NCBI GenBank assembly: GCA_003194525.1
Contig: NBIV01000090.1
Location: forward strand, 186,001 to 250,000
Length of the DNA stretch: 64,000 bases
Reading direction: 5' to 3'
Origin: Gracilariopsis chorda
Taxonomy: Eukaryota > Rhodophyta > Florideophyceae > Gracilariales > Gracilariaceae
Shown: positions 31,015 through 55,306 of the stretch, piece after piece
Numbering within the stretch: the stretch's first letter is position 1
Layout of the letters: each line of letters begins with the position of its first letter
Translations under genes and position numbers: made by a program
Notes under the pieces: model-generated
Told to the model about the DNA's origin: nothing
The model's input: only the letters and a program-made list of their open reading frames with translations
The model's database searches: none

Positions 31015-32936
31015 TAAAGACGAGCTACTAATAGCACAATATGCTTTCAATCTGTACCGAATCTGGCCCTTTTCAGGAAAGTTTGCACGGCATGTCGCCT
31101 GCAAACAGCTTCTCTTTCAGCATTTCCGACCAGCAATAATCAGGTCTTTCAACTGACATCGTTATGCGATAAACGCTGTGGCGAGGCTCAAATACGAAAC
31201 AAGCAGTTTTAGTACACATTTTTCGTCCCCATCCCAGGCTTTAACCGCGTCGATCGGTCTTAACGACGGCAGTTGCCAATCTTGAGTATGCAACTAGCGT
31301 CAAACGTCTAGCTAGATGCAAATAATGGTTGAATGGTTTACATAATGAATAAAAAAGGGTTGAAAAGTGAAGGTTTTGTGTCTGTATGTTAGTGGGTTGA
31401 GTCCAGACCGAAATCCAAGCGTCAAAGTGCCCTCTTGTAGCATCTGAAAGCACTCAGAACAACGAAGCAACGCATAACTACTTTTCACTTACTCATTTTT
31501 GCGTCTAGGTTACTCTATTGGCTTCTAACAGCATCTGGAGATGCATACTAACCAATAAAACTCCTTCTTATGATGCCAGCGTCACTTAAATACAGTAGCA
31601 CTGCTAAGCCAGCGAAGCGAATAATGCTCTAGAAGCTGTCGGAACACTCTAAACGTGTGTTCCAGCAGTGCCGGAACATTCTACACGTTTCGCGACCAAC
31701 AGTTTGCGATCGAGAAGCTACAGTTGGTACACTACCCAAACCATGTCGAACGTGGAAGCTCATTACTCCACGTATCGCTGGATACGCCCGAATCAGTGTC
31801 TTAGCGTACAGTTATGTAGCCCTGTGGTCTCATATTCCGCATCAGCTTTACATACCACACATTCTAATTGTGAATGGCTGTGCCAGCAATTCAGTGAAAC
31901 GTGCACGTTTCACTAAACCTGACAGTCATATTATCAATAAAGCACCACTGGCGGCTTTGGCTAACAACATGTGTCAGTCAAGCCACCAGATATTACTCCC
32001 CGTTTTCCATGGTACATCACACCCTGGGTTTTCACCACGCTTCTCCCTCCGCTCTCTTCACCACCACGAACATAACTTTTTGTACACTCTGCGCTTGTCA
32101 TCCCGGTCCCCGAATACTTGCGCTTTACATTGCCTCTGCATGCGCATCTTTCATCTTCACACATGTCCTGCGACAATGTATTTTTGTCTGCGTTGCGTTT
32201 GCACTACCTCATGAACCCGTGCTACATTGCTTACATTCCGCACAGTCTGCTGCTACATGCGGCATTACAACCTCGTGCAAATATTTGGCGTTGTGTTTCC
32301 TTGTTGTAGTTATCTTTTGTTTGAGCTCTTCTTTGCGCAGTACGGCGTTTCTATACCGTTTATTTGGAGTGGCAAACCCGAATCATAACTCAGTTGCAAA
32401 ATTGGGAGAAAACTTCCCCCATTTTTGCAGGCCCCAAGTAGCCTCAAAATGAACCTAAAGTAGCCTCAGCGTGATAAAATTGGTAACCCTTCCGGAAACG
32501 CTGCGACGGACCCCAACCCGTCTCACTGGCAGTCAATATCTCGACTTCCATGTTTGAGGGAAACTTTCTCCCATTTCTGCAACCTAGAACTCCCTCTGAT
32601 TTCAGGAAATGGGTGAAAATTAATCAAAAAAGGAGCTACTCGTGGAAATATTCTGACAAACCGTTTTTCCTCATACGCGTTCTTTCTTTCTTTTCTCTCT
32701 ACCTCCTTTCTTCTTTTTGGCGCTCGCACACCACTGAAGGTGCAACCGAGGCCCTTTCTCTCGATCCCCGACACTAGTTACCCGCTCTTGCGCAACGTCT
32801 ATTCCGCTCTGGCTGCGCCCAATCTCGCACATTACCGCCTTGGTTGTTGCCGCCACCTACAGCGTCGCACTATCAACACTGCTAGAATTCCTCAAACTTC
32901 CTCGGAAAGTGAATCGAGTGGGTACTTGAACTAATC
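31015..32936. other. 1.9-kb region, possible Copia LTR, no gene
   Basis: No recognisable protein. A 185-codon plus-strand frame (31657-32214) starts at GTG and looks non-coding. Because the Copia leader begins near 32910, part of this interval (perhaps 32500-32910) could be its 5' LTR, but I find no second copy in the window to prove it. Confidence 0.4.
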
Positions 32937-35419: not shown

Positions 35420-35720
35420 TTCTCCTACAGAACTAAGTTGACGTCGTGAGAGGAAGATCCCGAATATCTTCGTGGTGTTTCCGTTGGCAGGCAGTACACT
35501 ATAAGCAAGGACAATGGAACTCAAGCAGTCCTGAACGAATGCCAAACCGAAACAATAGCCAATGACATAACATTATCCAAGGTCCGAGAGGTTTTGCGGC
35601 AGTTGCTAAGACTTTGTCCTGCTTCTTTGATAGCAAAGTCAACATATGGCTCGAATTGGGTGCGACACATATCTTTGTCAACGTCAGTGTTCTCGGAATG
35701 CTAGATAGAGGTGCTAGATC
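35420..35720 (+). pseudogene. Copia protease-region fragment, copy 1
   Basis: One frame near 35635-35700 reads IWLELGATHIFVN, matching TWLECDASHVFVN in copy 2. This is the Copia protease active-site neighbourhood, with the expected D-S-G replaced. Many stops elsewhere. Confidence 0.5.
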
Positions 35721-36157
35721 GCAAGTTTCTTAGGCAAAAGCTCAAAATACTACGAAAATGATAGATTCTGCTAGTTTCCGGCGCTTGCCAAGTAAAAAAA
35801 AACCTTTTTTGGAATTCACACTTCCATATCTTACAGAGACCTGCCTCACCTGCACTGCGCATCGCTAGTTTCAAGTTTGGGGCAAGTCCATTCTCCACTA
35901 AAAGCTAGATACAGATCTCGAAATGGCGCTGGCCGCGCAGCAGCCAGCGCCATTTCGAGCCCCCAACCAAAACTACCATTTTTATTTCCATCTTTTGAAT
36001 TTAAAACTTCATACTGCCCTAGTTTGACTTCCAACTCATCCTCAGGAACTCATCGGGGGAGCTCTCTCGGTTCTCATACACCCGACGCACCGCCCATCAG
36101 GTTCCAATACCGCCCATTCCGTCGTCCTAACAGCCTCAACGACACTCCTAAACATCA
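35720..36157. other. Intergenic boundary region with a strong hairpin
   Basis: No gene. Contains the perfect 15-bp-arm hairpin at 35919-35957 that lies at the left edge of the ParB/methyltransferase/SET region. Confidence 0.45.
35919..35957. repeat. Perfect 15-bp-arm hairpin
   Basis: CGAAATGGCGCTGGC and its exact reverse complement GCCAGCGCCATTTCG, separated by 9 nt. GC-rich and very stable. Confidence 0.9.
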
Positions 36158-36844
36158 CTAGCCTTCTTCTCCCTCTTCCCCCTTTCCATGCCTCCTCTTC
36201 AACAGACTCTTAACCTCCAATCCTTCTTCGTCCTTCTCCTCCAACCTCATTTTCACGCCCCCTCTACCTCCAGGAGTAACCGGAGACCCACTCCCGACAG
36301 CACCTCTCACCCCACCTTCCCCTCCACCTCCATACATCTTGTTCCGCATATCCTCGACTAGATGCACAGCCCTGTTTACCAGTAAAAGCCGCTTCTCCAA
36401 CTCCAAAATCCATCCTCGCAACTCCTCATTCTCCTTCCACACCCTCCCCAGCTCCTCTCTCACACACACCACAACCCCATCGACGTGCTGCTCTGCCCAC
36501 ACCCCAGCCTCCCTCACCCTCCGGCGCAACTCAGCCACAACACCCATTGGCACTCCTTCCTCCGACGCACTCAGAACCATCCATCCCAACTCCACGACAA
36601 TCTCCTCAATACACTCATCCAAACGCTCCTTAAGCCCTCCCTCAGCGCTCCTCAATAGTTCCTTCACATCGCAGCAGAACCCATCCATTCGTCTCCTTCC
36701 ACCTCCCCCTACCCCTCCTCCTCGACCACCCTCGCCCGCACCTCCCTCCCCACCATCCCCTCCCATCATCGTCCCAACCCTAAGCTCACTGACCGAAAAT
36801 TGCAAATAGTATTCATGGTGCTTGTGGATGTTCTCAAATGACAT
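36158..36844 (-). CDS. Gly-rich coiled-coil protein of the modification cassette
   Basis: 228 residues from an ATG at 36844. A Gly/Glu-rich segment (about 26-50) precedes a long helix with heptad-like spacing (about 60-160, ELLRSAEGGLKERLDECIEE.., ENEELRGWILELEKRLL). The C-terminal tail is charged (RLEEKDEEGLE..KRRHGKGEEGEEG). It is the outermost gene of the leftward pair with the ParB-like gene. Uninterrupted, unlike its neighbours, but composition bias makes coding status less certain. The coiled coil suggests self-association. Function unknown. Confidence 0.5.
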   Translation of the reverse strand: MSFENIHKHHEYYLQFSVSELRVGTMMGGDGGEGGAGEGGRGGGVGGGGRRRMDGFCCDVKELLRSAEGGLKERLDECIEEIVVELGWMVLSASEEGVPMGVVAELRRRVREAGVWAEQHVDGVVVCVREELGRVWKENEELRGWILELEKRLLLVNRAVHLVEDMRNKMYGGGGEGGVRGAVGSGSPVTPGGRGGVKMRLEEKDEEGLEVKSLLKRRHGKGEEGEEG

Positions 36845-36845
36845 G

Positions 36846-36905
36846 AATCTTCAAGAGTCGTGAATGAATGTTCAAGAGTCGTGAATGAATTTTCAAAAGT
36901 CGATA
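36846..36905. repeat. Imperfect 21-bp tandem repeat
   Basis: Three copies of a unit like TTCAAGAGTCGTGAATGAAT immediately upstream of the coiled-coil gene, so possibly promoter-proximal. Confidence 0.7.
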
Positions 36906-37510
36906 ATGAATTTCCCACCTCTTCACTTGAACCAACTTCGTCACTGCTTAAATGCACAGCTTATCATCTTCTCATTTGCTCACCCCTTGTCCTTCCCAAC
37001 ACAAAAAACAATATTTTGAACCTCTACACGATAATGCCTTCACCCTCTTCACTCTTCTTCATACATCAAGCACGCCACAATGCATTCATGTATGAAAAGA
37101 ACCAGTACTTTCTATATCAACAGAATGGACAATCGCGGTATTTGGCTATAACAACGGGATCCTTCACACCTGTACAATCACCTTCAATTCTCATACATAA
37201 TCCCATACTCAATTTTACATCCATTCGTGTTTCATATCAGCTGCCCCTTCATTCTCCCCTCCAATACACCCATCCCAAGTTTCTTCTCATACTTGTAGAC
37301 CTTTTATTATGGAATATAACAAAGCGAAATCTTTGTAGACATCATCCCTTCATTATTACGCATCATTCGAATGAAGCCGCATAAAAAGTAATCCCCATCG
37401 TAGTAAACCTCTCCCACTCACTATAAACGTTCACTATAAACATTCATTATAAAGATCAAAAAGCAATCACCAGATTTAACAAACATATATCACTAGTTTA
37501 CTTATCATTA
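36906..37510. other. Intergenic, no confident gene
   Basis: A 174-codon plus-strand frame (36860-37384) looks non-coding. CACTATAAAC-type short repeats occur near 37425-37475. Confidence 0.4.
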
Positions 37511-40500
37511 TCAATCGCTTTCATCTTCCTCACCTATCAGACCCTCTGCTCCTTTAGGAACCATTTCACCCTCATCGTCATCCTCCTGTTCATAATCTCC
37601 ATCATTGTTCATTTCCGCTGGTTTCAGTATATTCTCATCGTCCTCCTCATCCGACGGGTTCTCACCTTCGGCTTCTTGCATAACTACATCTCTATCGTCA
37701 GCTTCATCTCCCCCCTCCTCTTCCCCTCCTCCCACCTCACATAAATCGCCACGGTCCTCTTCATCATTAAAAAAGGGAGGGCGAAAACCACTTTACCTAT
37801 GCACCGCATCCGGAAGATTGTATCCCTCAGGTACAAAGTACATATGGTATCGCATACAATAGCCTTTCGCTAATCCATCATTGTACCCAGCCCCAGCATG
37901 AAATACATCCCCTCTTCCAATGAACAGAGAAAACGGTGGAACTCTGAACTTCCGAACCATCATAAAAGCCGAAAGCTCTTTCAAGTTACCCCGTGTCATT
38001 GTTAGAGTATGTGACCGTTCACAAACCCAAATCATGAACTCATCCGATCCCGATGCCATTGCAATATACCCCGGGTTCACATTTCTCATCCTGTCATTCT
38101 CCGTCAAACCCCTGAAATCCGTGTGTAGCACCTGCCTCCGACAATCCTCTCCAGTACAAAGAATACGGCCACCCATGTGAGGGGCATACATCGTTCCACC
38201 TTCACAAAACCCGAGAGCCGCTGCAATCTGACCGAGCCTTGCATCCAACATGGCTCTCTTTCGAGCAAGAACAGCACCATTTTCAAGCTCCTCAATTCTG
38301 TCCGCAATCCCTCGTTTGGTTGTGATGAAACGCCCCACCGCCTTGATACCATTCTTAACATCCTTTACCCCTCCTTCATTGATGATCATATTCCAGAAAA
38401 CACGATTCGCTTCGTTCGTGAGATCCGGTTGCGAAACAAAGTCGCGTTCGAAGAAGTCCATCAGTTCTCCTATCACATCTTCGTCCATTCGCAGTCTCCT
38501 CTTCGAAGCCTCACTCGCCATGCCTTCATCTGTCCCGAAATTCTCCAGCACACAAAACCCTCTCTCCGACAGCCCCACTCTCTTCTTCGCGAAGTAAACA
38601 CAAGCCAAGTCCTCTCTCTCTAAAGCGGCCATCCATAACGCTTCCTCTTCATTCGATGCCGTTCCTGATGACGGCATCTTCACGCCCAGCACTGCAAGTG
38701 TCGTAGTACCCATCTCTTTGTGCATGTTGCGCGATGCACGCCAGTACAGAGCATGATGAACCATTCGGAAGTCATCAGGTGATAGGCACTCTGCCCGATG
38801 GTGCTTCCTCAGATTTATCCTCTGCATCCATGTATGAGAATGCTTCACTGCATTTCCGCTTGCAGGCCACTCACTCGGCAACGAGTATACCAGGTCCACT
38901 CAAGACATGTCCGCTCCCATAGCCAGCTCTCCTGGCGTACGTAAGCCAGCTGGACGCTTGTCAGGATTCTTCTCGCCAAAGCTGCCTGAAGTTTGCTGCT
39001 TCTCTGCCTCGTCTTCCTCATCATCCACAAAGTTCTCCTGAGCTTCATCCTCGCTTGACTCGAGCACAATGATCTCCTGTGATGTCAACCACCTCTTCAA
39101 ATCTCTCCCTTCCATACTACGCAGCACCTCCACCACCTTCTTTGAGGTACCAAAGCCAGGTCGCTTCACACCAGGTGCAGTCGGCTTACGATTCGATCGT
39201 CTCTGCCTCTTCACCGGTGGCTCAAAATCAACTGACTCTTCATCTTCATCTTCGTCCAGGATCTCCACTTTACGCTTCTTTGGTATTCGCTTACTTCTTC
39301 GAGCCTCCTGGTCAGCGTTTGGAGGCTCCTGAGCAGCTTCCTCATTCAAACCAAGCAACGCAATCACGTCTACATCGGCCGCAGAGGGAGCAGCAGCAGT
39401 AGCATCCTGTCCCTGCATGCCCTGCAAAGCGCTGGACAACGTCCTACGAACCTCTTTCACCTTATTACTCACTCTGAACTCCAGTGAACTGCGTTTCCCT
39501 TTCGAATACCACTTCCCCAGACGAGGTATGATATACTTTGACACAGTGTGGTCAGAATAGCCGATGGTAACCGTGGTATTCATCACTTCCTGTACATTCT
39601 TTTTCTCCTTCATGGACCTCCCCAGCTCACTGCAAATGTCATACGTTCTAGAAGCGCAGTCGAAGAAGTACTTTCGGAAATCCTCAAACGGTCCCATCTT
39701 CACAGTGGCCGCCGACCTCACTCCAACATGTGCCTGTACACATTGGATAGTAAAACAAAACTTATCCCCTGACATTCCAAGCAGAACACCACTAGAAACA
39801 TGAGTGATTCTAATTTGAGGCGTCTCCTGCCACACCACATCAAAGAACTCTAACAGACCGGGATTACGCGCAAACTTCAGAGCAAGAGCAGAATGGCAAT
39901 TGAAATGACGTATCTTGCCTTCTTTCCCCTTCGTCTCACTGCTCCACAACACCCCCGTGATTTGGCTTGGTTTAAGCTTCGACAATTCATACCCATCCTG
40001 CTCTACGCCATTACGAATAAACGAAACAGCAGTGTGAATCTTATCTGCGAAGGACATCACCAGAACATTGGAGCTCAAACCATTCAACGTCTTCCCCAGC
40101 CACAACACCTCATTCAATGTCATTCTCCGGCCGTCGTTCCGTTCCAAAGCGTGACGTTCAAACCAGCATTAATCCGTGCCCATCTCGCACCATCCTGCTC
40201 GAGGCCCAGTAGAACAATCAGTCGATGGAAGCCGTCCACCAAAACCACAGGAACAATCAAACGCCCACTCGCATCAATAGCGTCACGAACCGGCACATCC
40301 TCCAACCGGGCCACCGCAATCGACCCAAGAGAAGGGAGCCATCCAAATTTCCTCAGTTTGTTCGAAGTATCTCGAAGATGTTTGTCATTCTTCGAACGAA
40401 CCATATTCTTCGGAAATCGAATGTTGTGGATATCGATTAGGCAATTGTGCTAGTCATAATCCTCTCGATTGATGTCTAGGACCCCCAAACTGTCATCTAC

Positions 40501-41386
40501 CTCTTCTGAAGGAACAGCATCACCGTCATCATATAAAACCCTCTCCTTCGGATCAAGATCGTTCTTGGAGAGTACAGGCACCTCTATGACGTCATCATCG
40601 GAGCTTGCTCCGACTTCAGGGCCTCCTCGGTTTCCAGAGCCGCCCGCGAGAGCACCTGATGTTCCTCCACCGCTCTGACGGGTTTTCACCGGAGCCTCTC
40701 CACCGCTCTCAAGGCTCTTCACCGGCGCTTTGGTCACCAAAATGCTTGATGGTGTACCAGCAACAGCGGGAAGGCGCTTGACTTGTCTTGCAGTGGTCCT
40801 GGAAGCTGTACGTCTGTGGACATTCTTCAAATTTGCTCCTGACTGCGGTGGAACCGACTCATTCCCCTCTCCGCCTTCATTTTTGACACTCATCATTGCA
40901 GTGTCCCATGCATATAAACCCGCTGAAACTATCTCCTTCAAAGTTGCGGGCGGTTCCTCGGGACCCCCAAAAACATAAAGGTACTTCTCATTTTGGTATG
41001 ACGAAATATTTGTCTTAAAGATAACTCCCCAGTCCTCTCCAGGTCTCTGCGTAGAGGACAGGGGATGGTTATGTAGAGAACGACAGAGTCTCGTCCCCGG
41101 CCCCACCAGCAACCCCCACACCGCGCAATTTCGCCTCTCCTACATTCACCTTTGCATCATTACTTCCAACTCGTACGAACAGATTGACCTCCGCATCGCC
41201 CTTAAGCACCTGACCCGTATTGCCCCCAATTGATGGCTCAGGGTGGCTGGCAGTTCGGGTGGCGCCCCGGTTCTTCGCTTTGCCTCGCCTGGTCGGCATG
41301 TCGATAACACGTCTCTTCGGCGAAACAGGCTTCCACGGAGTCCGTTTCCGTGATGGCGCGTTTATCTTATTCCCAGTGCAATCCAT
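37511..41386 (-). pseudogene. Large ParB-like protein, multiply interrupted
   Basis: About 1290 codons from an ATG at 41386, read through two frameshifts (near 41100 and near 40140) and in-frame TAG (40450-40452), TGA (38900-38902) and TAA (37793-37795). N terminus: basic, disordered. At about 40440-40130 a ParB/sulfiredoxin-like domain is seen, with LIDIHNIRFP at its start and the signature VDGFHRL (about 40219-40239). A central acidic/basic patch (KRIPKKRKVEI) looks like a nuclear localisation signal. The C-terminal third has mixed alpha/beta character and ends in a very acidic tail. ParB folds bind DNA and nucleotides and often accompany DNA methyltransferases in mobile DNA. Here the methyltransferase gene is its divergent neighbour. 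Confidence 0.65.
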
Positions 41387-41448
41387 GGCTGAGTACTTCA
41401 AAGGTCGCGCTTGCGTTTTCTTGGCACCCGCTGACGTCGAATGCTCCC

Positions 41449-41770
41449 TTGATCACGTATGCTTGGTTCCAAAGAGATGGACGTAAGAACTATATATCGT
41501 TTTCAAGACGTTTCATGACATCCATTGTCGTCAACGTAGCATCTCAGCAATTCCCCTCCCAATTAGTTGCATTGCAAAAAGAATTTGATAATTTTTTGGT
41601 CGAGGACCATGATCCGAGGTGTCGTGGTCCTCCATCGCGAACATGATGGAGTGCCAGGACGCGAAATTTTAATTAAGATTCATGCCTGGCGCTCCATCGT
41701 GTTCGCGATGGAGCACCATGCCACCTCGGACCACGGTCCTCGACCCAAAATGAAGAGAATCATAATCCGT
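41449..41770. repeat. ~320-bp direct repeat, copy 1, with giant hairpin
   Basis: Starts near TGATCACG..TGCTTGGTTCCAAAG and ends near TCGACCCAAAATGAAGAG. It contains an inverted repeat with ~61-bp arms (41598-41658 and 41685-41745) around a 26-nt AT-rich loop. Copy 2 is at 41937-42255. It sits between the divergent ParB-like and methyltransferase genes. Confidence 0.88.
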
Positions 41771-41936
41771 GGCAACCAAGTCAAAAGCGACTTGCGCATT
41801 CTTCGCAACCGCATTCGTTGCGTCGGTTTGGGCGATTGAACACTTCTCTTGAACCCGAAGAACAACTTTTTCTTGTTAAACAAAGCACCGGAGTGGTCGT
41901 CTCCAACAGTGTTACCCCTTTCCTTTGAAGCCCCCG

Positions 41937-42255
41937 TGATCACGCCTGCTTGGTTCCAAAGAGATGGACGTAAGCACTATATATCGTTTTCAAGACGTTT
42001 CGTGACATCCATCCGTCGTCATCGTAGCATCCCTGCAATTCCCCTCCCAATTACTTGCATTGCAAAAAAACTTTGATAATTTTTTGGTCGAGGACCATGG
42101 TCCGAGGTGTCGCGGTGCTCCATCGCGAACACGATGGAGCGCCAGGCATGAATTTTAATTAAACGTTCGCGTCCTGGGGCCCCATCGTGTTCGCGATGGA
42201 GCACCATGACACCTCGGACCACGGTCCTCGACCCAAAACGAAGAGATACATAATC
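41937..42255. repeat. ~320-bp direct repeat, copy 2, with giant hairpin
   Basis: Same layout as copy 1: ACTATATATCGTTTTC motif (TATA-like), a poly-T stretch, then ~61-bp arms (42086-42146 and 42173-42233) around a 26-nt loop containing TTTTAATTAA. It ends about 25 bp before the methyltransferase ATG, so it may be its promoter. Confidence 0.88.
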
Positions 42256-42278
42256 CGAAGGAAACAGGTTCATTCAAG

Positions 42279-44541
42279 ATGAACGGAACCGGAGAAGAGC
42301 TTATTGATGCTTATCTTGCAGTTCGTGATAACTACGCAGCGACGAGGCAAAATGTGGATGAGCCGAGAAGTTTAAGCACACCGACTTTGTGGAGTTCGCG
42401 GTACAAAGTTGCAACGTTCATGACTCTGCCAAGAAAATGTTTCTCACTCTCATCGGACCGGATTAAATCTCGTATTCGGACTCCGAGCTCCATAACATGT
42501 CTTTCAGAGGCCCTCCACGTCAACTCTATCTTATGGCAAGAGTGGTGCACGTAAAGGACCGTGAAGAAGACAGGCGTGTAAGGGACTTTTGGGAGGTTTA
42601 TTGTAAAAGGGAAGGGCTTAAAGGAATTCCCCGTAACGTGTTGCTATCCCTCTTTTGCAAGTCCCGTGTTCTGGGAGCAACCAAGAAATCTTCCGCTTTC
42701 CACACGGATCCTTGCACCGACTTTGAAATGGTCACTGGGTTGTCTATGGTGCAACAGATTGCCGTGGATAAGAAAGGAAGTGGTAGGAAGAGGAAAAGGG
42801 CATGGCAGCTAAGAAGTTCTCTAAAGTGAGTTTGTCGGACATGACACAGAGTCAGAGAGTCGGGTATGGTGTGCAGCTGGTGACCAGGGCTTGGGATTGT
42901 TTCGCCCAATTTCTCGGGTTTCCCAACGTTGAGGTTATGATCTTGCCTTACATTCGACTCGACTATATCAGTGTAGTCTTCACCGATATCGCACAACGCT
43001 CCATAGGCTTCCAACACAAAGATTGTTCCAAACAGTTTGTGGAGGAGAAGAACGTCACCACCGTAGAAGAAAACGTTACCAAATGGGCATGGAATCTGCC
43101 GGACCCAGTGGATACAGCGCTTAGCCTTTGTGCCAAAGAATACCTTGGTGACCTTTCTAATGTGGTGGTACAAGAGAAACTGTTCGACATCTCTGCTCCC
43201 AGCAAATGCGATGCCCTCAAGAGGTTCATCATCACGAGAACGAGACTTTTCCCTCTGCGGTTTGAGAGCTTTAGTGAATCTCTTGTCACTACGGTTCAAG
43301 AGGCCATTAAGCCTCTGAAGCTCATTGCATTGCATGGAAGCAATGTCAAAGTTCATCAAGCTGTGAAACCAGAGCCCGCAGAAGACGTTGAGATCATTAT
43401 AGAGCCGGTAGAAACTGGTACGGCTGGTGGTGGTAACGAACGTGCTGAGCGTGTGGAAGGTGGTGATCAGGGTGAGTTGGAAGAAGTGGAAGATATAGAG
43501 ATGGTAGAGGATGCGGAACGTGGTACTGCGGAACGTGGTACTACACCAAAGGCCACTGAAGGACTGCAGACAACAGCTTTGTCGCAGAACTTATCGTATG
43601 ATGTCGAAGGCACGGGGATTCGTGCACCACCGTACCCTACGACTTTGGATGATGCGATAGCTTACACGTATTGTGAGAAGGAGATGTCCCGCAACTTCCG
43701 TTTCCACAACTGCAAGTTCGAAAATCTCATCGAAGTTGACGACAACAAGTCTGGCGAAAGCGAGGTATCTATTGAAGGAAGGGTACAGTTCCTGCTTTCC
43801 GATCCACCATATGGGACTCGTTCTGAGCGTCGTTTGGAGAACAGCGAACACGATATTATGACAGAGTAGGGCATGAGCAGGTCAGCGAGGAGGTCGTCAA
43901 AGCTTCTACGTCCTGGTGGACATATTATACAGTTGTGCTCATGGGATCAGGTACCGTTGTGGCGGGATGTGCTACGGAAAGTTACCTACATGGATGACTC
44001 TGATACGATGCGTTACTCCTTTTTCGTCGACGAGCAGCCCCTCCATTTCGTACGGTCTTTAGGTAATACGACGGGTAACGTTGGGAGAAGAAGTTGTCGG
44101 TTGCACCAGACGACAGAATACGCTGTACATGATGTTCGTTCTGGAGTTCCTTATGCACAACAGCACCGGGTGGTCAACTATGAGAACTTCAATTATGTTG
44201 CTTCACGATACCCAGCGTATCATGCAATCATGGATCAGGTGCCGCCGATGTCAAATAGTGAGATGCTCATGTGGTCTGTGAAAAACCCGGATGGGAAGTA
44301 TACGAGGAAGAGGGTGCGACCGGAACAGAAGTGTAGGGCACGGTTGAAAGAGCTGATTTGCAGGTTAAGTCAGCCAGGAGACCTCGTGGTCGACATTTTT
44401 GCCGGAACGTTCTCGACAGCGATGGCGTACATGGAACTGCCCAAGCATCGGAAGTTTGTGGGGTGTGAACTGGACAAAGCTTGCTTTGAACACGCCAGGC
44501 ATGCCACTATTGTTCGCTTCGCTTCCATAATACGGGAATGA
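42279..44541 (+). pseudogene. DPPY-type (beta-class) DNA methyltransferase, interrupted
   Basis: Amino-methyltransferase of the N6-adenine/N4-cytosine kind. About 750 codons from an ATG at 42279, with frame changes near 42500 and 42800 and an in-frame TAG at 43867-43869. The N-terminal ~340 codons of the main frame have no known motif, then an acidic linker. The catalytic motif SDPPYGTRSE is at 43798-43827, followed by LLRPGGHIIQL. The AdoMet motif VDIFAGTFSTAMA (44389-44427) and FVGCELDKACFEHA close the domain. DPPY before the FxGxG motif is the beta-class order. In FAGTF the last Gly of FxGxG is Phe. Target specificity cannot be told. Confidence 0.82.
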
Positions 44542-44577
44542 CACACGGATATTGAGAAGAGCCAGAAGCTTCGAAAG

Positions 44578-45380
44578 ATGGCCCATTGTGTTTCCTCTGC
44601 ATTCCCAATGGGAAGAAGCAGGCACACCGTGTTATGGAGGGCTGTCGACGGATTTCCACCGTACCAAATTCTTCCCCCACACCTTGTCGACTTTCTCTCC
44701 ACTTTGTGGCAAAATGAAATTCTAGGGAAGTTGGGAAGGAAGAAAGCTATAGATGGATGGCCGAAGGAGCTGCAGGGAAGAATGAATCTGGAGAACATGA
44801 AGTCTCTATTGGCAATGGAGGCTGTGCAATATGGGTTGCGAGTGGGCAAGTTTACTATTCGTCACGAAAAGGCTGGTGTTGGAGTGTTTGCAACTCGTCG
44901 AATTGCTGCAGGTGAGGTAGTGTGCTATTTCTAGGGACATTTGTTTATCATGATCTTTCGAATTGGAAAGAAGTGTACAAGATCTACGGGGAGGGAGTCA
45001 TGGGTGTGACGAAGGATCGCTTCCGGAAGTATGCAGTGGAGATAGAAGTCTACGGTCAACAGTTCCAATCACTTCCGCATCGAAAACAGCTGACGAATTG
45101 GCATGGAAAACAACCAAACCCCATTTTATGGGTGGTTCCTGGCCCTTTTTGTATTGCGGGGTATATCAACGATCCAAAGTACGTGGAACGGGATAAAAAA
45201 TTAGATGCCATGGTGGATGGCCTCTTGAAATAAAGGGAGGCTAATGTGCGAATGAAACGGACACCGGGAGTGGGACGAACACCAGGGGGAATAACGGACT
45301 ACAAACTTATTCAGATGGTGGCTACAGCCCACATAAAGCAAGGAGAGGAACTCTTCGCCAGATAGGGTGATGTTTCTGAC
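44578..45380 (+). pseudogene. SET-domain protein (lysine methyltransferase-like), broken
   Basis: Starts at an ATG 36 bp after the methyltransferase stop. The N-terminal ~95 residues are helical with no motif. The SET domain begins GVGVFATRRIAAGEVV (about 44875-44925), and a one-base slip near 44930 shifts the frame into YGTFVYHD. CIAGYINDP follows near the usual AdoMet-binding Asn position, and after an in-frame TAA (45231-45233) come ANVRM.. and IKQGEELFAR, where the final Tyr of the ARYG motif is a TAG. SET proteins methylate histone or other lysines. The order and motifs are convincing; activity is lost in this copy. Confidence 0.75.
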
Positions 45381-45593
45381 TAACAAACCCATTTGAATGT
45401 GGAGGATGGAATGATAGTCATTGATTAGTTCTTTGTTATAAACCTTTCTCCACAGCTTGGCTAAAGGATGTCGTTTATTATGTGAACGGATGTATAGTAC
45501 TAACTTAGGACAATATTACTTTTCAGTAGGGATAGGAGATACAAAGCGATATAGATGTGACACAGAAACGTCCATTTTCGGTACCACTGAGGA
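45381..45593. other. Short gap, nothing recognised
   Basis: Between the SET remnant and the next long frame. Stops in all frames. Confidence 0.35.
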
Positions 45594-47926
45594 TTGTATT
45601 TTCAAGATTTCACAAAAAGCAAAGATTTTTGTGCGCATCGGGTGGCAAGATTTTCCCAGAAAACACACGACGTGCGCCAACCCAGAGCGTCACCAGCCAC
45701 TTGCGCAAGAGTTTTGACTCCAAGAATCGCGCCGAAGGGAAAGAAGCAAGGCCCAGGAAGGGGTAGTGCGGCGAGTGCGGCTAAGACGCGGCGAAAGGCT
45801 ATTGAGGAGCGAACCACGAGTGGAACGAAAGCGAAATCATGTGTTCCCAGGAGTGGAATATCGGGGAGGTGGTGAGGAGAAGGTGCTTCGAAGAGAGGGG
45901 GAAGAGGTGGGGCAAAGAAGGTCGGATCCCAGCGCACGACGAGTGAGAATTTGAAGGCTGATGCCCATGCAAATATAGCAGGCGGGAGAGATTCGGTTCG
46001 GGGACAGCGATCTATGCCTGGGTCGGGTGGTAGAGTGGAGGGTAAAAAAGGGTTGGTTGTTCGGAGAACGGAAGAGGTAACAGATCAGGGAGGGTTGAAA
46101 GGAAATGCGCCGGTCGAAGACCGAACTAAGGATGAAGATATGCCCGGAAGGAAACAAATAGAAGAGGCAGGTGGGCTGAAGAGAGGTGGGGCCCCAAGTG
46201 GAAACCGAGATGTAGGAGAGGTAAATGTCTCTTTGGTACTCAGTGATGGGGACGAAGAGGATCACATTGTGAAGGAGAGATGGACGAGAGATATGATAAA
46301 CGAAGGAGTGGGACGCCGCTCTAATTTAAAGGAAACGCGAGAAGTGGAAGAAGTGGTCAGAGCGACGGATGGAATACAGGAAGCATCGAAAAGCGGAGAC
46401 CGTACAAGCACACTCGTGCAGACGCAAAAGGTCCAAATGGCTGAAAACTTGGAAAGTGATAGAGGAAGCAGAACGCCACAGACTCTGGAAGGCATGCGAG
46501 AGAGAAAATGAATTGTTCATCGGTCGCCAAGTGAACCTGCTGACGAGCGAAGCCTGCCTGTCAATGTTTTTGGAGATGCAGGAATTGACGACATCGGTAT
46601 GATTTCTTGGTCTTCGTTAGTTGAGAGGGTCAATATATTGAGGGCAGAACTCGGACAGATCAAAGGGGACCACTGCAGCCTAAAGATGTCGCTGAAGCTG
46701 ACCCAAGAGGAACTGAAGTGTATGAGAGAAGAGATGAGCGAGAAGAATATATTGATAGATAGCTTACGGGAATGGATGAAGGTGGGAAAAGGGGAGAGAA
46801 AGGGATCTGGAGGTGAAAATGGCTTGAGAGAGCGTAGGAAGTACGTAGTTGATGTGCAAGAGAGTTTTTATGGGTTTGCCAGGGTAATATATGATAGGTT
46901 GTTGTACTATGCGAAGGTGGAGGTATCGGAGTTTTGTTTTACTTCGGAGGGTGTGGAAAGAAACTGGAAGAATCGATGCAAAGTATTGGGGAAGGGAAGA
47001 GAGTGGAGTGTGTTTGTCGTCGGTGGAAAGGAAATTATGCCTCGATGTCCGTTTGAGATCGCGTCTCAGATGAAGTCGTACACGCCTTCGTCGCAAGGAG
47101 GAAGTAATGACCAATTGAAGTACTTGGTTGGCGTTGAGATTGAGGGGGAGAGATGGCAGTCGATTAGTGATGCGGGTAGGAAGGATCAATGCGTGCGGGA
47201 GGTTGTTGCGGACAGGTGTTTGAGGCCACATATGAAGCAGAATTTGAGTGATGTGATTGGAATTCGGAAGCGTGCGGCACCGGACAAAATGCTTTCGTTG
47301 CTTAGATATGACTTGATCGCCAGACGTGTGAGACCACGAGAGGGGATGGGGCTAGACATTGAGTTGAAAAAGCAGTTAGAAGAAGCAAATACGTAGTTCA
47401 AGGGGGATGGGGAGGCAAAGAGCGGTAGTTTATGTTCTTGGAGGATGAGAACAATCGAGGATCTTACGTATTCTGGATTTCAGGTTGCTGGCCGGCTGAG
47501 GGAGTTTAGTGAAGAGGACATGTACTTCAAGAATGGGGCTGCGGTGGAAGTGTTGGAAGAACTCATGGGATATGAGGTGGGGACGGAAAGGGAGGGAAAG
47601 ATGGAGTACGTTGATGGGACAGTGATGCATTTGGCTCGTTTGGATGCGTGGATTGGATTTGTTTTGACAGCAATAGACACAGACATGGGGCTTGGAGGAA
47701 AACGGCAGTTGTTACTTTCTAGTTGTACGGGAAGTATCTTCGGTTTGCTGCGGAGAAAATACTTGGGGTGGCGTGGGAGAGGGTGAGAGAACTACATCAT
47801 GAAGAATTGGAGAATGAAAGTTGCGATGACGGTGACCCGCGTTTTATAGCTAGGAATGAGAGTAGAGAAGCGAAGGTAGCGCTGTGGATACCTCCGAAAC
47901 GGAAGATTGCGGAGATGGCGCGCTGA
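45594..47926 (+). pseudogene. Large basic/coiled-coil protein of the cassette, interrupted
   Basis: One frame runs from 45594 to about 47720, broken only by TGA (45873-45875), TGA (46509-46511) and TAG (47394-47396). After a frameshift near 47720 the next frame reaches 47926. N terminus basic (KGKKQGPGRG, AKTRRKAIEE), middle acidic, then a clear coiled coil (about 46599-46770, LVERVNILRAELGQIKG.., EELKCMREEMSEKNILIDSL) and a globular region rich in Tyr, Trp and Phe. The end has ARLDAWIGFVLTAI and WERVRELHHEEL. The start is uncertain because no good ATG opens the frame. No known family. Same direction as the two methyltransferase-type genes, so probably one cassette. Confidence 0.55.
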
Positions 47927-49044
47927 ATGAGGGCAATTCTTGTTTCGCGTGGGATTTTGGAGGACGAATGTGGGATGGAGCATCCGTCGTCGGGGGAGGA
48001 AGAGGGGGAGAAGATAGTTGGGAGGTATCCAAGTAGGGTGAGGTTTTGGGAGACACACTTTCGGTGGAATGCGTCGGAGATGTTGAGAAGGGTGATGTGA
48101 AGGGGGTAGGAGGTGATGGAGGAGCCTTTGAGTGAGGTTACAGACGTATCGGAGTATAACTGGACGAGACCGACGAATGATTCCATACCGGTTGTTTCGG
48201 GGGTGTGCCAGACGATATCATTGATGTGGCACTGCGTGATGGCCTGTTTAAAGACAGGAACGACTTTGTTTCAGAAGGCTGCGGCCATAGGATGGGCGAA
48301 GGCGGGGGTTGAAGAAGAGTAAGGTGAAGATTGGGAAACGCGTTGTAAGAAGATGTTGTTGAAGTGTGCGAGAGCGATGTGTTGCTTCAGGACGTCTATG
48401 GTGCCTTTTTGGAAGAGAGTTGCGGAGAAGGAGTTGTGCTCGTCGGAGATTGTGAGAGGGAGAAAACTGGTGGAGTTGATACGCCCCTTGACGAGGTGTT
48501 CTTGGAGTGCGAGGCACTGCTTTGCGGAGGAGATGGATTTCTGGAAGGATGACCTGGAGACGTCTGGGTGGTTGAGAAGGGAGATGAGTTCGTCGGCTTT
48601 GTGTGTGCTGGAAGAGGAAGCGATGGAGGAGATGCAGAGGACGATTTGCTCGAAATGGGGGTTGTTGAGGAGAGGGCAGGGGGATTGGGACGAGGTATGG
48701 GGAGGTGGGTTTGAGGAGGAGACTGAACAGAGGGCGTGACTTGCCATGTGGTGTGCGTCTTGTGTTTTGAGGGAAAGGGAGGCCTGTTGCATGTGATAGG
48801 GTTCATCTTCGGCGAGGGGGACGTGGTCGGAGGGGCGGTGTGAGGGAGTGGGAGGAGGAATGATGGAGAGGTTTGGAACGGATTTTCGTCGCTTGGTCCT
48901 TGGAGGGAACTGGACGGGAGCGTTGGCGGAGGAGGAAGAGCGTTTGTCGGGGGTGAGTCGATGAGGGCACTTGCGTTGGTGACTCTGGAGAGAGAACGCG
49001 GTGCGGCCATAGAAGGTACAACGGGGATGGCAACAGGGTATCAT
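47797..49044 (-). pseudogene. Plavaka/CACTA-like transposase, N-terminal remnant
   Basis: Starts at an ATG at 49044 with a C2H2-like zinc finger (CCHPRC..H..C) in the first 25 residues, as in Plavaka-type transposases. A Ser/Pro-rich linker and helical region follow, with an in-frame TGA near 48269-48271, then QLYSDTSVTSLKGSS, which resembles the conserved segment around the first catalytic Asp, and LLGYLPTI, a hallmark phrase of that family. The frame ends at 47797, well short of the usual >900 residues, and overlaps the 3' end of the convergent coiled-coil gene. Assignment is by recalled family motifs, moderate confidence. Confidence 0.55.
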
Positions 49045-49244
49045 GGCGTGGAAAGGAGAACGGAGAACGGGATGCTTGGAAACAGAAAAGGGAGGGTGGT
49101 GGCGGAGTGGGATATCGGGGAGCGTAATATTATGGCGCACGTAGATGAGGTGGTGCACGTGATGCAGAGCGTCTTTTCGCAGGGCGTGGGGTAGAGCATG
49201 CGATGCAGGGAGCAGGTCGGGCAACGGGGGATAGAAAGCCAAAG

Positions 49245-49659
49245 CTATTTGGTTATGTAGACGCTATGTATCTATTCTATCTATTCTATTTTGCTATTTG
49301 AAAGGGCACTCGCTCAGGAACAGTAAGATTTGGATTCCATGTGCACCTGAGAGGGTAGGTATTAGCGGAGTCTGGCGCTAGTTTTACTTCCAAAGAAACT
49401 GGGAAATGTGTAGTATACTGCTAGTCTTTTTTCCCAAGCAAACTAGCTCTGTGCTATGTATGGAATTATTTTTAGAAATTTGATTCATTCAAAATTGGGT
49501 TTGAAGAGTCGTTATTCGTTCATTTTAATTCTTTGCCTTTTGAATGCCAAACTAGTATAACGAGAACACCGACGATGTCATGTAGTCCACGTCCATGTAC
49601 TGGGAGGGTCGTTTGAAATATCTTTCCAGCAGGGAAGACGTCAGACATCTACGCAGTCT
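49245..49659. other. Intergenic region, no gene
   Basis: AT-rich, with short CTATCTATTCTAT-type direct repeats near 49265-49295. A clear transposon terminus matching 35.7-36.1 kb was not found. Confidence 0.4.
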
Positions 49660-51298
49660 TACCTTTCGAATCAAAACCTGTCACTCTCCACGGAGATGTA
49701 TGTGAAGTGCTTGTACAGTTGGATTGATGCGAACATGCCTGAACTCAAAGAGTTTCTATGCAGCTTCAACCGCGCCCACCACTCTCGCTCTCATATACGC
49801 CCTGATCTCATGTTGAAGCATGTCGCTCTGTGCACCTGATTGGATTTCCTTTCGACTTGATACAACGAAATCTTGTTCTTTGGCACTCTTGAAAGCCCCA
49901 TTCATCAGGTATGTTACAGTGCTGCCACCTTGGGTTCTTTCAACACAGATGTGAGCCCTGTACTTCATTTTGAGATCTGGATTGTACGGAACCACTTTCA
50001 AACCTTCTGTCCTTCTTCATCTGGTAGGTCACTCGGTTTGTGTACTCATTTATCGTTTTTTCAGCCATAATTTCTTGTCGATCATACCAAAAGTGGCAAC
50101 TTCCGTCAGAGATCCGACCACGGCAATATGGAGAGTGTCTTTGCATATTCAATTTCTTGACCAATTTTTGGAGTTCATGCTCTTCAGGCGAGTCACCCCG
50201 AGGCAGTTCGGCTTTGATCAAAGTGTCAATGATCTCAGGATCTTCAATTACACCCCCCTCCCACCAAAGAGGAATGTGATCATGTAGAGTATTTCTCTCC
50301 TGGAACTCAACTTTAGCGGCACTCCCAATGCAGTTCAAGCCAAAGAGCTGTTCTGAATTATTCTGTAGATTATTCATGATTGAATTTCCATGCTGGTTGT
50401 ACACTCTTTCAATAAGATCTGGCCTATCAAAGGACGGCTTCTGTCTCACGGAAAAAAATGCTCCAGTTTTGTCATTGTCCATACTAAGCCCTTTCATCTC
50501 TTCCCGCCATAATTTCATTGTGAATGTGACGAAAAGCGTCGGGGAGCCCAGTCGAACGACCATTGCTTGCACATCCAGTCGTTTTTTTCTCCAGTACGCC
50601 AGAGAGTTTTTGTGATTACCTGGAAGGAAGAGTTTACCGGGAGGGCCAATCTCATCTGTTCCGGTATGGGTTCCAGCCCGCAGCTCACTTTCTTCAACCA
50701 TTCTCATCTGTTCTGTTTCCAGGTAGCGAAGTCTCAAGTCTGCAATGTTTGCGCTAGAACGAAGCAACCATTGCTGAAGAAGAGTTCCAGGGTTCAGCAG
50801 CACATTATAGGTGTACAGTCTTCGCTTATAGTGTTTTGCCCATATTAGGCTCCTGTCGTCTCGGTTTTTTGCATCCCTTGATGAAATACATGTTTCTGTA
50901 TCATACGGGGCATGAATCTCACCGTAAGCGTAGAGCAGTAGTAAAGCCCCTTTCTCAGCCTTCATTGAATCAAGCTTTAAACGCTGGTATTTGACAACTC
51001 GACATCGAAGATTTCCGTTTGACATGTGATGGGATTCTTTTCCCCCTACCAGCTGGGAAACTGGGGCTTCCGACCCGAAAAGTCTACTTGGCTCTACGAC
51101 GAAAGCTCTCATTGCAAGAGGTCTGCCTCGGCTGTCTTCTGGTACGGATGCTGCACCGGAGCTCACCTCGATTCGGCCTTCATGGGTACCTTGATAATTC
51201 CGGACAACTATTCCTTCATGGACAGCGTCTGCAGACCTGTCCAGAGTAGACTCGCCCACGTTTGATCTCCTCCGAACAACTTTGTCTGGTTTGAACAA
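49660..51298 (-). pseudogene. Helitron Rep (HUH endonuclease) remnant
   Basis: Rolling-circle replication initiator of Helitrons. Motifs in order: LLQQWLLRSSANIADLRLRY, PTLFVTFTMKLW, the HUH motif in FQERNTLHDHIPLWW, then after a frameshift near 49950-50000 VVPYNPDLKMKY and TVTYLMNGAFK, where the second catalytic-Tyr position appears lost. A later TAG replaces a conserved Trp near 49755. No helicase follows. The N-terminal frame to 51298 starts without an ATG. Truncated and inactive. It is separate from the Pif1 gene at 26-28 kb. Confidence 0.85.
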
Positions 51299-52560
51299 AA
51301 CATTCTATATCTCTGTAGGACAATATCTGGTCTTGGTTGCAAGAGATCGTATAATTTTGGAACCAAGTATCGAATATTCGGTTTAGACACCATTCTTCTC
51401 GTGAAAGAAGAAGAATAATCACGTGAGTTAAGACTGGGAGGACCTTCCGATCACAAATATTTGTAGCGCATGTCCTGGCCTGGAGCAGAAAGAGACAAAT
51501 TGCCTTGAAATCGAAGAAATGACGGACCTCCACTCTGAACGTGCTTCATACACATGAATGTGATAACGATTGCAAATAACACATTTAAGTGTGTTGATAG
51601 CGTTTGAAAAGAACGTAAGCGATATATGTCTTCAAGTTGAGAATTGATATGCACTCGTCTGAAAGAAACTCCAAGCGATCTGGAGCTTTTATATCCATAG
51701 CATGTTCCTTCAGTCTCTGCAGTAAGCATAACTGCACCATAATACTTGCACATAAGAATACGAAGCATGCACCCCAAATCTTTGAGAAGACATCAAGTTG
51801 CTCGATGGCTCTTTGCACCGCACGTCCCACAACACACTGGAAGTGTGCCAGTGATTAATTGGTAATCCGGATATGAAGAGCTCGGACGTGCGAGACCTTG
51901 AAGAATGTTTTCTGCCGTTGCATCCAAGAGATATTTTGCTCCATAGTGAATGCCTTAATGAGGTCTCCCAGCGAACTGCATAACCATCCTATCTCGTTCC
52001 TTTTGAATGCCGGAAGAATGAGAGGAGTTCAAGTAAATCTTTCAGGGTTATGAAGTTCCATAAAATTTTGGAGAAGCTCAGTTCTAGTTCCTAAGAACGC
52101 CTGCGCAAGTTCATCGGTTATGTCTCTATGATGCACGGGCTATATATTTTCTCTTGAACGACGGCCTGCTCCTGACCGGCGTCCACCACGTCGTGATGGC
52201 GGTCGATGCGAAGAAGAACTCATGTCGGACTGTGGGAACCGGAGAGAGATTGAAAGATTTGGTGATCACCTTTCGATGGAACATGTACCTTCTCCGCCCT
52301 TTAAGTAGAGAACTGGTGTTGGACATTAGTTTCCCGCATGAAATATTATACTTATTTTCTTCATTGTCTCATGATGTTCCTGACACCAGCAGTACATTGA
52401 TAATTTACATTCGTATTACTTTACTAAGTACATATGCATTGCATTCTTATTCAGTATTGGTTTCAGGCGTTAATAAATATCGAGTACGAATTTACCTACC
52501 TATGAAACGTATAGTTGATTCCTATTCTTGTTTTAGGGTTCGGCGTTTGTATAACTGTTG
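51299..52560. other. Intergenic region, small frames only
   Basis: Minus-strand frames at 51451-51830 include a hydrophobic stretch but no family signal. A plus-strand 142-codon frame (52154-52582) looks non-coding. No repeat shared with other regions was noticed. Confidence 0.4.
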
Positions 52561-53374: not shown

Positions 53375-55306
53375 TGAATTGTAAGGGGTCAACTTGCTCG
53401 TTGTCAGAACAATCCTTAGGTAGGTTAGACAAGTGAAAACGGCCTTCGGCCGTGGGCGGCGCTGCGCGCCGCGTGGTTTTTGTAGCTTTGTGTATTTCGT
53501 ATTGTTTGGAGGCTCTCCGAGCACTTTCCTCGCTTGCGCTCGCGAAAGCGCTCGTAGAACCACGGGGCGCCGCGGCGCCTAGAGTATGTGGAGCCATTAG
53601 GGTTTGTGTTTAGGTATCTAAGTTGACTGCAGTGCCAGCCAATGATGAGAAAGCACGACACGTTGCTTTGTGTAACTGGGTGGCACTGCAGTCATTATGG
53701 GAGTGCCAGCCAGTAAGCAGGAAGCTTTGCTGCTGCTGCTGCTGCTGCTGAATTTTTTAAATGGTAGAGAGGCGTTGCGCCAAATGGGCGATTTGCATGC
53801 GCAAATGGGGGCGTGCAAAGCGAATTTGTGGCGCAACGCCTCCCGTCAGTCAACAACACCCCCCTCATACATGTGTAAATCATTAAGAGTGGGGTGTTGA
53901 GACAAGTAGAAACGGCCTTCGGCCGTGGGCGGCGCTGCGTGCCGCGTTGTTTTTGTAGCTTTGTGTATTCAGTAGCGTTCGGAGGCTCTCCGAGCACGTT
54001 GCTCGCTTGCGCTCGCAAGAGCGCCCGTAGAACCACGGGGCGCCGCGGCGCCTAGAGTATGTGGAGCCGTTACGGTTTTTGTTTAGGTGGCTAAATTGAC
54101 TGCAGTGCCAGCCAATGATGAGAAAGCGCCACACGTTGCTTTGTGTAACTGGATGGCACTGCAGTCATTACGGGAGTGCGAGCCAGTAAGCAGGAAGCTT
54201 TGCTGCTGCTGCTGCTGCTGAAGTTTTTAAATGGTAGGGAGGCGTTGCGCCAAATGGGCGATTTGCATGCGCAAATGGGGGCGTGCAAAGCGAATTTGTG
54301 GCGCAACGCCTCCCGTCAGTCAACAACACCCCCCTCATACATGTGTAAATCATTAAGAGTGGGGTGTTGAGACAAGTAGAAACGGCCTTCGGCCGTGGGC
54401 GGCGCTGCGTGCCGCGTTGTTTTTGTAGCTTTGTGTATTCAGTAGCGTTCGGAGGCTCTCCGAGCACGTTGCTCGCTTGCACTCGCAAGAGCGCCCGTAG
54501 AACCACGGGGCGCCGCGGCGCCTAGAGTATGTGGAGCCGTTACGGTTTTTGTTTAGGTGGCTAAATTGACTGCAGTGCCAGCCAATGATGAGAAAGCGCC
54601 ACACGTTGCTTTGTGTAACTGGATGGCACTGCAGTCATTACGGGAGTGCGAGCCAGTAAGCAGGAAGCTTTGCTGCTGCTGCTGCTGCTGAAGTTTTTAA
54701 ATGGTAGGGAGGCGTTGCGCCAAATGGGCGATTTGCATCGGCAAACGGGGGCGTGCAAGACGAATTTGTGGCGCAACGCCTCCATTCAATCAAAAACACC
54801 CCCCTCATAGAGGAACAAATACTTATAATGGAGAGACAAGTGGAAACGGCCTTCGGCCGTGGGCGGCGCTGCGCGCCGCGTTGGTTTTGTAGCTTTGTGT
54901 ATTTAGTAGCGTTCGGAGGCTCTCCGAGCACTTTGCTCGCTTGCGCTCGCAATAGCGCTCATAGAACCACGGAGCACCGCGGGGCTGAGAGTATGTGGAG
55001 CCGTAGGTGTTTGTGTTTAGGTGCTAAAATTGACTGCAGTGCCAGCCAATGATGAGAAAGCGCGACACGTTGCTTTTTGTAACTGGGTGGCACTGCAGTC
55101 ATTATGGGAGTGCCAACCAGTAAGCAGGAAGCTTTGCTGCTGCTGCTGCTGCTGAATTTTTTAAGTGGTAGGGAGTCGTTGCGCCAAATGGCAGTTTTGC
55201 AAGCGCGTATAGGGGCATACAGGGCGGTTTATTGGCGCACCGCCTCCCGTCAATCAAAAACACCCCCCTCATACATGTGTAAATCATTAAGAGTGGGGTG
55301 TTGAGA
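53375..55306 (-). mobile_element. Helitron-like tandem array H3 (four type B units)
   Basis: Four head-to-tail units: 53429-53901, 53902-54371, 54372-54835 and 54836-55306 (about 470 bp each). Units 2 and 3 are almost identical. Each has three hairpins: GGCCTTCGGCC with GGCGGCGCTGCGCGCCGC; GACTGCAGTGCCA..TGGCACTGCAGTC; and GGGAGGCGTTGCGCCA..TGGCGCAACGCCTCCC. It also carries a (CTG)n run. The minus-strand 5' end follows an A (A|TCTCAACACC). The tail left of unit 1 (about 53375-53428) matches that of H1. No coding sequence. Confidence 0.75.

Follow-up and report, generated by a model that had tools for sequence, protein, structure and literature searches.

A decayed Plavaka-type transposon of Gracilariopsis chorda belongs to a high-copy family with fused methyltransferase-SET and candidate ParB-like/dioxygenase-like proteins

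Analysis of a 64,000-nucleotide stretch of the red alga Gracilariopsis chorda (contig NBIV01000090.1, positions 186,001 to 250,000; C90:186001-250000 in our contig numbering), hereafter the window, revealed a 13.9-kb decayed transposon copy at window positions 35682-49574, the limits of which are set by inverted termini. Comparison with the rest of the genome (91.3 Mb in 1081 contigs) identified this locus as a decayed member of a high-copy Plavaka-type family with fused cargo proteins. One joins a DNA methyltransferase to a SET domain; the other, encoded divergently, joins a candidate ParB-like region to a candidate dioxygenase-like region, and the two genes flank an intergenic region with long palindromes. 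The most likely reading of this gene set is that the element places epigenetic marks on copies of itself.

The element is a high-copy Plavaka-type transposon

Assignment of the element to the Plavaka type follows from its transposase, its terminal repeats and its 2-bp target duplications. A 910-amino-acid (aa) transposase frame in the copy designated c187 matched the Plavaka profile PF18759 (E = 4e-21, 76 bits), which had at least 114 matches in the genome; all genome match lists used here are lower bounds. A genome scan for the terminus pattern, allowing up to two mismatches, gave 115 forward and 124 reverse matches (239 altogether), compared to 1 and 0 for the pattern written backwards. Perfect 2-bp target duplications flanked 12 of the 12 paired copies checked, namely c37, c187 and ten facing end pairs picked from 100 listed terminus places; in the window copy, which was not among these, the flanking dinucleotides aa and at form an imperfect duplication. 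The termini read CGTCR..YGACG and are nearest to those of PlavakaB, but they match neither the PlavakaB (CATCA..TGATG) nor the PlavakaA (TGT..ACA) form, for which ends of CATCA and TGT, respectively, have been reported (PMC12730594), and we claim neither terminal class for the element.

These results bear directly on a preliminary description of the window, made from its letters alone, which had placed a single decayed mobile element at 36158-49044. A single decayed insertion is supported and terminal repeats confirm that it is one mobile element, but the unit is longer at both ends than had been proposed. The transposase remnant seen at one edge is the element's own Plavaka transposase, lying inside the right end and keeping residues ~47-456 and 827-911 of 911, with the middle lost. 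The search of the genome for other copies with the same gene order and mapped ends, which that description had suggested, yielded less decayed copies with 23-bp termini.

The family is apparently not extinct. Two subfamily B copies, c37 and c187, share blocks of 4.6 and 3.4 kb in which they are 99.6-99.8% identical, pointing to recent movement, and four near-identical uninterrupted 1048-aa methyltransferase-SET frames are present in the genome. An internal deletion of ~2 kb is found in c37, and the stretch that it shares with c187 ends at the 23-bp inverted terminal repeat. Seven other stretches of subfamily A match the window copy at 93-95% identity in their largest pieces, and the window copy is apparently an older insertion than the c37/c187 pair. 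In a third subfamily, C, the A/B-type terminal repeats were absent from the fetched stretch of the copy on contig C172; with such ends not found there, the subfamily C cassette may ride another element. Downstream in this copy (loci L087-L088, C172:9500-28500) are an open reading frame (ORF) of the OrsD zinc-finger type (E = 1e-6) and an ORF with a DEAD-helicase match that is weak and under the cut-off.

A DNA methyltransferase and a SET domain share one reading frame

All five motifs on which the preliminary description relied are present in the window. Four of these mark the rightward methyltransferase-SET gene: SDPPYGTRSE at 43798-43827, FAGTF at 44398-44412, GVFATRRIAAGE at 44881-44916 and QGEELFAR at 45339-45362. 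The co-occurrence of DNA- and lysine-methyltransferase domains was thus correctly recognized, but their assignment to separate genes was not, as methyltransferase and SET share one reading frame in less decayed copies. In a single 647-aa frame, PF01555 (N6_N4_Mtase) and PF00856 (SET) both score above their cut-offs. The methyltransferase profile reaches 68 bits against a cut-off of 26.7 and the SET profile, in locus L042, 23.8 bits against 22.4; in the window itself, the ORF at 43870-44541 matches PF01555 with E = 9e-11. Separate genes, considered for both cargo proteins, are ruled out by the uninterrupted frames that fuse the methyltransferase to SET and the ParB-like to the dioxygenase-like region.

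The methyltransferase motifs are widely kept, with SDPPYG in 28 and D.FAGTF in all 30 of the best-scoring 30 fetched loci. The nearest solved relatives are DpnA and CcrM; this kinship and the DPPY motif suggest that the enzyme is a predicted adenine methyltransferase, with N6-adenine the more likely target. In the SET part, GYINDP stands in the position of NHS and GDEIFSEYG is present, the usual SET motifs being NHS and a terminal Y. The nearest solved SET chains were KMT2 enzymes, at an E-value of only 0.05. Relatives of the methyltransferase part were found in phages at 24-28% identity (among 15 records listed of 343), and the methyltransferase-SET protein had no relatives in the viral contigs searched.

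The fusion is a property of the family as a whole. At least 150 PF01555 matches were listed in the genome, from 175 candidates, along with at least 85 PF00856 matches. Among the listed SET matches, 59 of 85 follow a same-strand methyltransferase at a distance of 0.3-1.7 kb. SET genes of the host show long uninterrupted frames of up to 2408 aa.

The divergent gene encodes candidate ParB-like and dioxygenase-like regions

The leftward gene had been described as a ParB-like gene on the basis of VDGFHRL (40219-40239, minus strand). The motif stands, whereas the gene proved to be the front of a longer protein and profile searches gave the ParB-like part no significant match; the dioxygenase-like region at the rear of this protein had been missed altogether. 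Front and rear share one frame in three subfamilies. The VDGxHR motif of the ParB/sulfiredoxin superfamily is kept in eight of nine aligned sequences, the ninth reading VDGFHG. The rear carries HxD...H...R, the signature of 2-oxoglutarate-Fe(II) dioxygenases, with all four residues in four of five aligned sequences and Q in place of the first H in locus L056. The HxD and H of this signature are also given in PMC12730594. The HxE hallmark (PE-type) of Plavaka TET/JBP proteins was not found among the five, four of which have HxD and the fifth QxD.

Neither region matched a profile of its namesake family (ParB or dioxygenase) in Pfam, PHROGs or NCBIfam, and PF12851 (Tet_JBP) had no match in the genome in a search without a working control. 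Structure prediction gave a dioxygenase-like model with a predicted local distance difference test score of 31.8 and a ParB-like model likewise too weak for fold assignment, with which fold searches returned no significant match. The ParB and dioxygenase names are thus candidate assignments resting on motifs. Both regions are abundant in the genome, with at least 109 matches for the ParB-like and at least 115 for the dioxygenase-like part. Outside it, the ParB-like part had no relatives in phages and a single weak plasmid match (E = 0.9) that we take as noise; the dioxygenase-like part had only E = 4 matches in phages and none in the plasmids, viral contigs or prokaryote contigs searched.

The gene arrangement recurs genome-wide

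In all three subfamilies read, the dioxygenase-like/ParB-like gene and the methyltransferase-SET gene diverge from a palindrome-rich region. Across the genome, dioxygenase-like and methyltransferase matches within 13 kb of each other were on opposite strands in 54 of 54 pairs, 3.9-8.5 kb apart (median 5.8 kb). Plavaka and methyltransferase matches within the same distance were on opposite strands in 72 of 75 pairs, and 70 Plavaka matches were at 2.0-6.5 kb (median 5.8 kb) on the methyltransferase's other side. The chance of one Plavaka neighbour with the right place and strand is ~0.006 per locus. For this analysis we kept 91 of the 115 dioxygenase-like and 113 of the 114 Plavaka matches, those dropped being taken as further pieces of a listed copy, together with the 150 methyltransferase and 85 SET matches listed; a listed methyltransferase was at the expected place for 54 of the 91 and 70 of the 113, respectively. 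Because the same genes recur genome-wide in fixed order and orientation, the motifs seen in the window are not due to chance.

Both the divergent dioxygenase-like/ParB-type gene and the convergent Plavaka transposase were found at 26 of the 150 listed methyltransferase loci, contrary to the possibility, raised at the outset, that these genes occur together nowhere else. The transposase alone accompanied 44 loci, the dioxygenase-like gene alone 28, and neither 52. Decay, deletion, contig ends and the limits of the match lists all contribute to these incomplete loci.

Palindromes lie between the divergent genes in each subfamily

The intergenic region of the window copy contains an array of palindrome-bearing units (Table 1), and palindromes occupy the same place in the other subfamilies. 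In c187 and c37 of subfamily B, the interval between the divergent-gene positions contains a palindrome that is perfect over 86 bp. In C172, of subfamily C, the unit occurs three times at a spacing of 232-236 bp, and two of the three have arms 40 bp long with 88-93% complementarity. Fold z scores for four palindromes across subfamilies ranged from -12.5 to -16.3, and no shuffle folded as well. For subfamily A, 40 of 42 palindrome units adjoin a ParB-like and/or methyltransferase match: 18 have both at the expected distance, 22 have one and two have neither. Of the two neighbourless units, one, at C112:207077, is no more than ~6.5 kb from both a SET and a Plavaka match, and the other is C6:13089. 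The count was based on 42 of 125 palindrome matches, mostly after dropping shorter, reverse and further-unit matches, and on 64 of 109 ParB-like matches.

An unrelated inserted miniature inverted-repeat transposable element was considered as the source of the palindrome and is disfavoured by the location of 40 of 42 units beside element genes and by the different palindromes at the same place in B and C copies. Rather, the palindromes fit a candidate protein-binding or structural address site, for which the ParB-like protein would be the obvious candidate binder.

Selection between subfamilies and decay of the window copy

Pairwise Nei-Gojobori ratios of nonsynonymous to synonymous substitution rates (dN/dS) were obtained for the dioxygenase-like, ParB-like and methyltransferase parts. 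Between subfamilies A and B, where dS is ~1.0-1.4, the dioxygenase-like part gave 0.11-0.12, the ParB-like part 0.12 and the methyltransferase (205 codons) 0.15-0.17. Within subfamily A, dN/dS was 0.6-2.1, and the comparison of B with C was saturated and gives no ratio. The low values between subfamilies together with those within A indicate that the tested parts were under purifying selection along the subfamily lineages and that inserted copies then decayed.

Decay had been ascribed to all genes of the element. This holds for the window copy, in which each gene tested with tblastn (all but the ORF at 36158-36850) has at least one internal stop and both fused genes have frame changes, the ParB-like/dioxygenase-like gene showing one frame change in addition to stops. 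It does not hold for the family, since long uninterrupted frames exist elsewhere. Similarly, the profile searches that had been proposed bore out PF01555 and, in L042, PF00856, and did not bear out ParB.

Two further genes of the window copy have no family assignment. The DNA of the 36158-36850 stretch is partly conserved (81%) in c37 and c187, and the gene for the ~740-aa protein, a coiled-coil protein according to the preliminary description, had no significant Pfam family match in c187. Copies c37 and c187, both of which are without the ParB-like gene, carry a leftward ORF of 287 aa (L042:319-1182, minus strand; also L040) that looks hydrophobic by eye, is situated between the methyltransferase gene and the left end, and had no significant Pfam match.

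Table 1. Features of the element copy in the window (window positions)
Feature	Position	Strand	Basis and remarks
Whole transposon copy	35682..49574	.	Same termini as at the ends of c37 and c187
Left terminal inverted repeat, 23 bp	35682..35704	+	One mismatch to the searched pattern; flanking dinucleotide aa
Leftward ORF, 230 aa, left end of element	36158..36850	-	No Pfam match
Decayed fused ParB-like/dioxygenase-like gene	37619..41103	-	tblastn with the uninterrupted 1266-aa frame of locus L089
Dioxygenase-like part with HxD...H...R signature	37796..38899	-	Alignment
ParB-like part with VDGFHR motif, approximate limits	39529..40458	-	Motif and alignment
Intergenic array, one full and one partial 488-bp unit	41439..42257	.	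A long imperfect palindrome in each unit
Palindrome arms	41593-41658/41685-41750 and 42081-42146/42173-42238		Second palindrome folds with z = -16.0
Decayed fused methyltransferase-SET gene	42264..45425	+	tblastn with the 1048-aa frame of locus L010, 65-71% identity
N6_N4_Mtase domain (SDPPYG and FAGTF)	43783..44496	+	PF01555 match at C90:229783-230496, E = 1.7e-11
SET domain, split by a frame change in the window copy	44875..45425	+	Start at E = 0.058, under the cut-off; rest by tblastn with L010
Decayed gene, protein of ~740 aa	45681..47791	+	tblastn with L042 frames
Plavaka transposase remnant	47563..49128	-	24.7 bits, under the cut-off; tblastn
Right terminal inverted repeat, diverged	49552..49574	-	Flanking dinucleotide at

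Other features of the window

Several other ORFs lie in the window: retrotransposon pol-type ORFs (reverse transcriptase, RNase H and integrase) at 5031-8707, a DDE_Tnp_1_7 transposase domain (E = 4e-49) in an uninterrupted 702-aa frame at 22460-24568, a PIF1 helicase ORF at 27290-28057 (E = 9e-38) and a Helitron_like_N ORF at 49940-51304 (E = 4e-18), just past the element's right end. Tandem units of ~470 bp with short inverted repeats form clusters at 53411-55306 and 30280-31017, ~23 kb apart and ~84-92% alike in their best stretches. A metallo-beta-lactamase-fold hydrolase is encoded at 17427-18191, its nearest solved relatives being organophosphorus hydrolases and a lactonase (E ~1e-13).

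Interpretation and alternatives

We propose, in what we regard as an evenly balanced judgement, that this Plavaka element marks DNA and histones at its own copies. The putative ParB-like protein would bind the palindromes in a parS-like manner and would thereby bring its dioxygenase-like part to the element, where it could remove or alter methyl groups carried by bases or proteins. At the same place, the methyltransferase-SET protein would write DNA amino-methyl marks and histone lysine marks, and the outcome would be that the promoters and termini of the element are kept fit for expression and transposition, or that self is marked. A writer-eraser pair acting on N6-methyladenine (6mA) is conceivable, given the reported activity of CcTET on 6mA (PMC12730594). 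A role against 5-methylcytosine silencing appears less likely because the C5-DNA-methyltransferase profile PF00145 had no match in the genome, in a search in which controls matched in 10 of 14 cases and intron-split genes could be missed. PF05063 (MT-A70), PF00172 (Zn_clus) and PF00964 (elicitin) also had no match in the genome, in searches without a working control. The fully specified form of this proposal, a self-addressing epigenetic system with a palindromic address, a ParB-type loader-dioxygenase eraser and a bifunctional DNA/histone writer in a host that may lack C5-DNA methyltransferases, is tentative, and we consider it possible but doubtful. Two observations weigh against self-directed marking: c37 and c187 transposed without the leftward ParB-like/dioxygenase-like gene, and in subfamily C copy C172 DAPT replaces DPPY in motif IV of the methyltransferase.

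The absence of the leftward gene from c37 and c187 also bears on the idea that palindromes and methyltransferase gate transposition, with methylated termini or palindromes controlling transposase binding and the histone and dioxygenase parts serving the same timing, so that the cargo would be transposition machinery rather than an anti-silencing system. The purifying selection on the tested cargo parts and their fixed spacing from the transposase are consistent with such control. Nevertheless, these two copies moved although they lack the ParB-like/dioxygenase-like gene and have an incomplete methyltransferase gene, so these genes are not required in cis, and the window palindromes are kilobases away from the termini, making this alternative unlikely in our view. 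The element might instead be carrying its genes as passengers, captured without benefit to it. Internal deletion of cargo in some copies and stops in many listed matches would be expected in that case, yet dN/dS of 0.11-0.17 between A and B, the recurring order and strand and the presence of intergenic palindromes in each subfamily argue for a maintained function, and we give passenger cargo very little credence.

Two further alternatives retain a function for the cargo; both seem improbable to us. Marks could act in trans, the element silencing or marking rivals or host genes, for example to limit its own copy number. Precedent comes from bdelloid rotifers, which are without C5-methyltransferases and use a captured chromodomain amino-methyltransferase, with N4-methylcytosine at transposons (PMC8885841), and the present genome likewise gave no C5-methyltransferase match; however, self-carried silencing would oppose spread unless it served copy-number control. 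A restriction-modification-like addiction or exclusion system, a shade more doubtful still, would have a ParB-like nuclease cut unmodified palindromes or competitors and the methyltransferase protect residents, resembling the ParB-methylase proteins of prokaryotes. ParB-like DNases and a nicking ParB-adenine methylase fusion have been reported there (PMC5512222), and the divergent genes described here share a palindrome-bearing intergenic region, but no nuclease motif is shown, ParB membership is unproven and the SET and dioxygenase-like parts would be left unexplained.

Comparison with known systems

Transposons with a TET eraser or with a SET gene are known. The present element would differ from them in joining predicted DNA-writing and histone-type-writing activities within one protein, alongside a ParB-like/dioxygenase-like partner and an array of palindromes inside the element. 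Such a combination was not found described in the open-licence literature searched, making the family a candidate for a previously undescribed cargo-bearing Plavaka-type element, pending proof of the ParB and dioxygenase parts. If self-directed marking is correct, how a transposon controls chromatin could be tested directly on near-identical young copies in one genome, and the system bears on the contested origin and role of amino-methyl DNA marks in eukaryotes.

The closest parallels are the TET-carrying Plavaka elements of Agaricomycetes, for which escape from silencing has been proposed (Kojima 2025, PMC12730594). These share with the present element a Plavaka-type transposase, 2-bp target duplications and a dioxygenase or dioxygenase-like cargo. 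In contrast to them, the dioxygenase-like part described here lies behind a ParB-like region, has HxD rather than HxE and shows no Tet_JBP match, and the element has CGTCR ends and adds a methyltransferase-SET protein and palindromic arrays. From Phytophthora, the same report names HarbingerS and MuDR transposons that likewise carry a SET gene; they belong to another transposase superfamily, and the accessible text of the report mentions no fused DNA methyltransferase. The Plavaka giant repeats of Amoebidium, with a cargo of clustered intron-poor genes, many of which encode tyrosine recombinases (PMC11244446), are similarly large, Plavaka-associated and cargo-bearing in a protist; the accessible text describes no methyltransferase-SET or ParB cargo.

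Beyond Plavaka elements, the N4CMT of bdelloid rotifers, an amino-methyltransferase with a histone-reading chromodomain described as a rotifer-captured enzyme (PMC8885841), resembles the present protein in joining a prokaryote-type N6_N4 methyltransferase to a chromatin domain in a eukaryote genome without C5-methyltransferases (here, none found), but the present methyltransferase is fused to SET and resides on a multi-copy transposon. Finally, a ParB-like region and an adenine methylase also occur together in one genetic element among prokaryotes, in the ParB-methylase and polyvalent proteins that phages and conjugative elements encode (PMC5512222). In the family described here, the corresponding proteins are separate and divergent, each is fused to another enzyme-like domain, and both are carried by a eukaryotic transposon.

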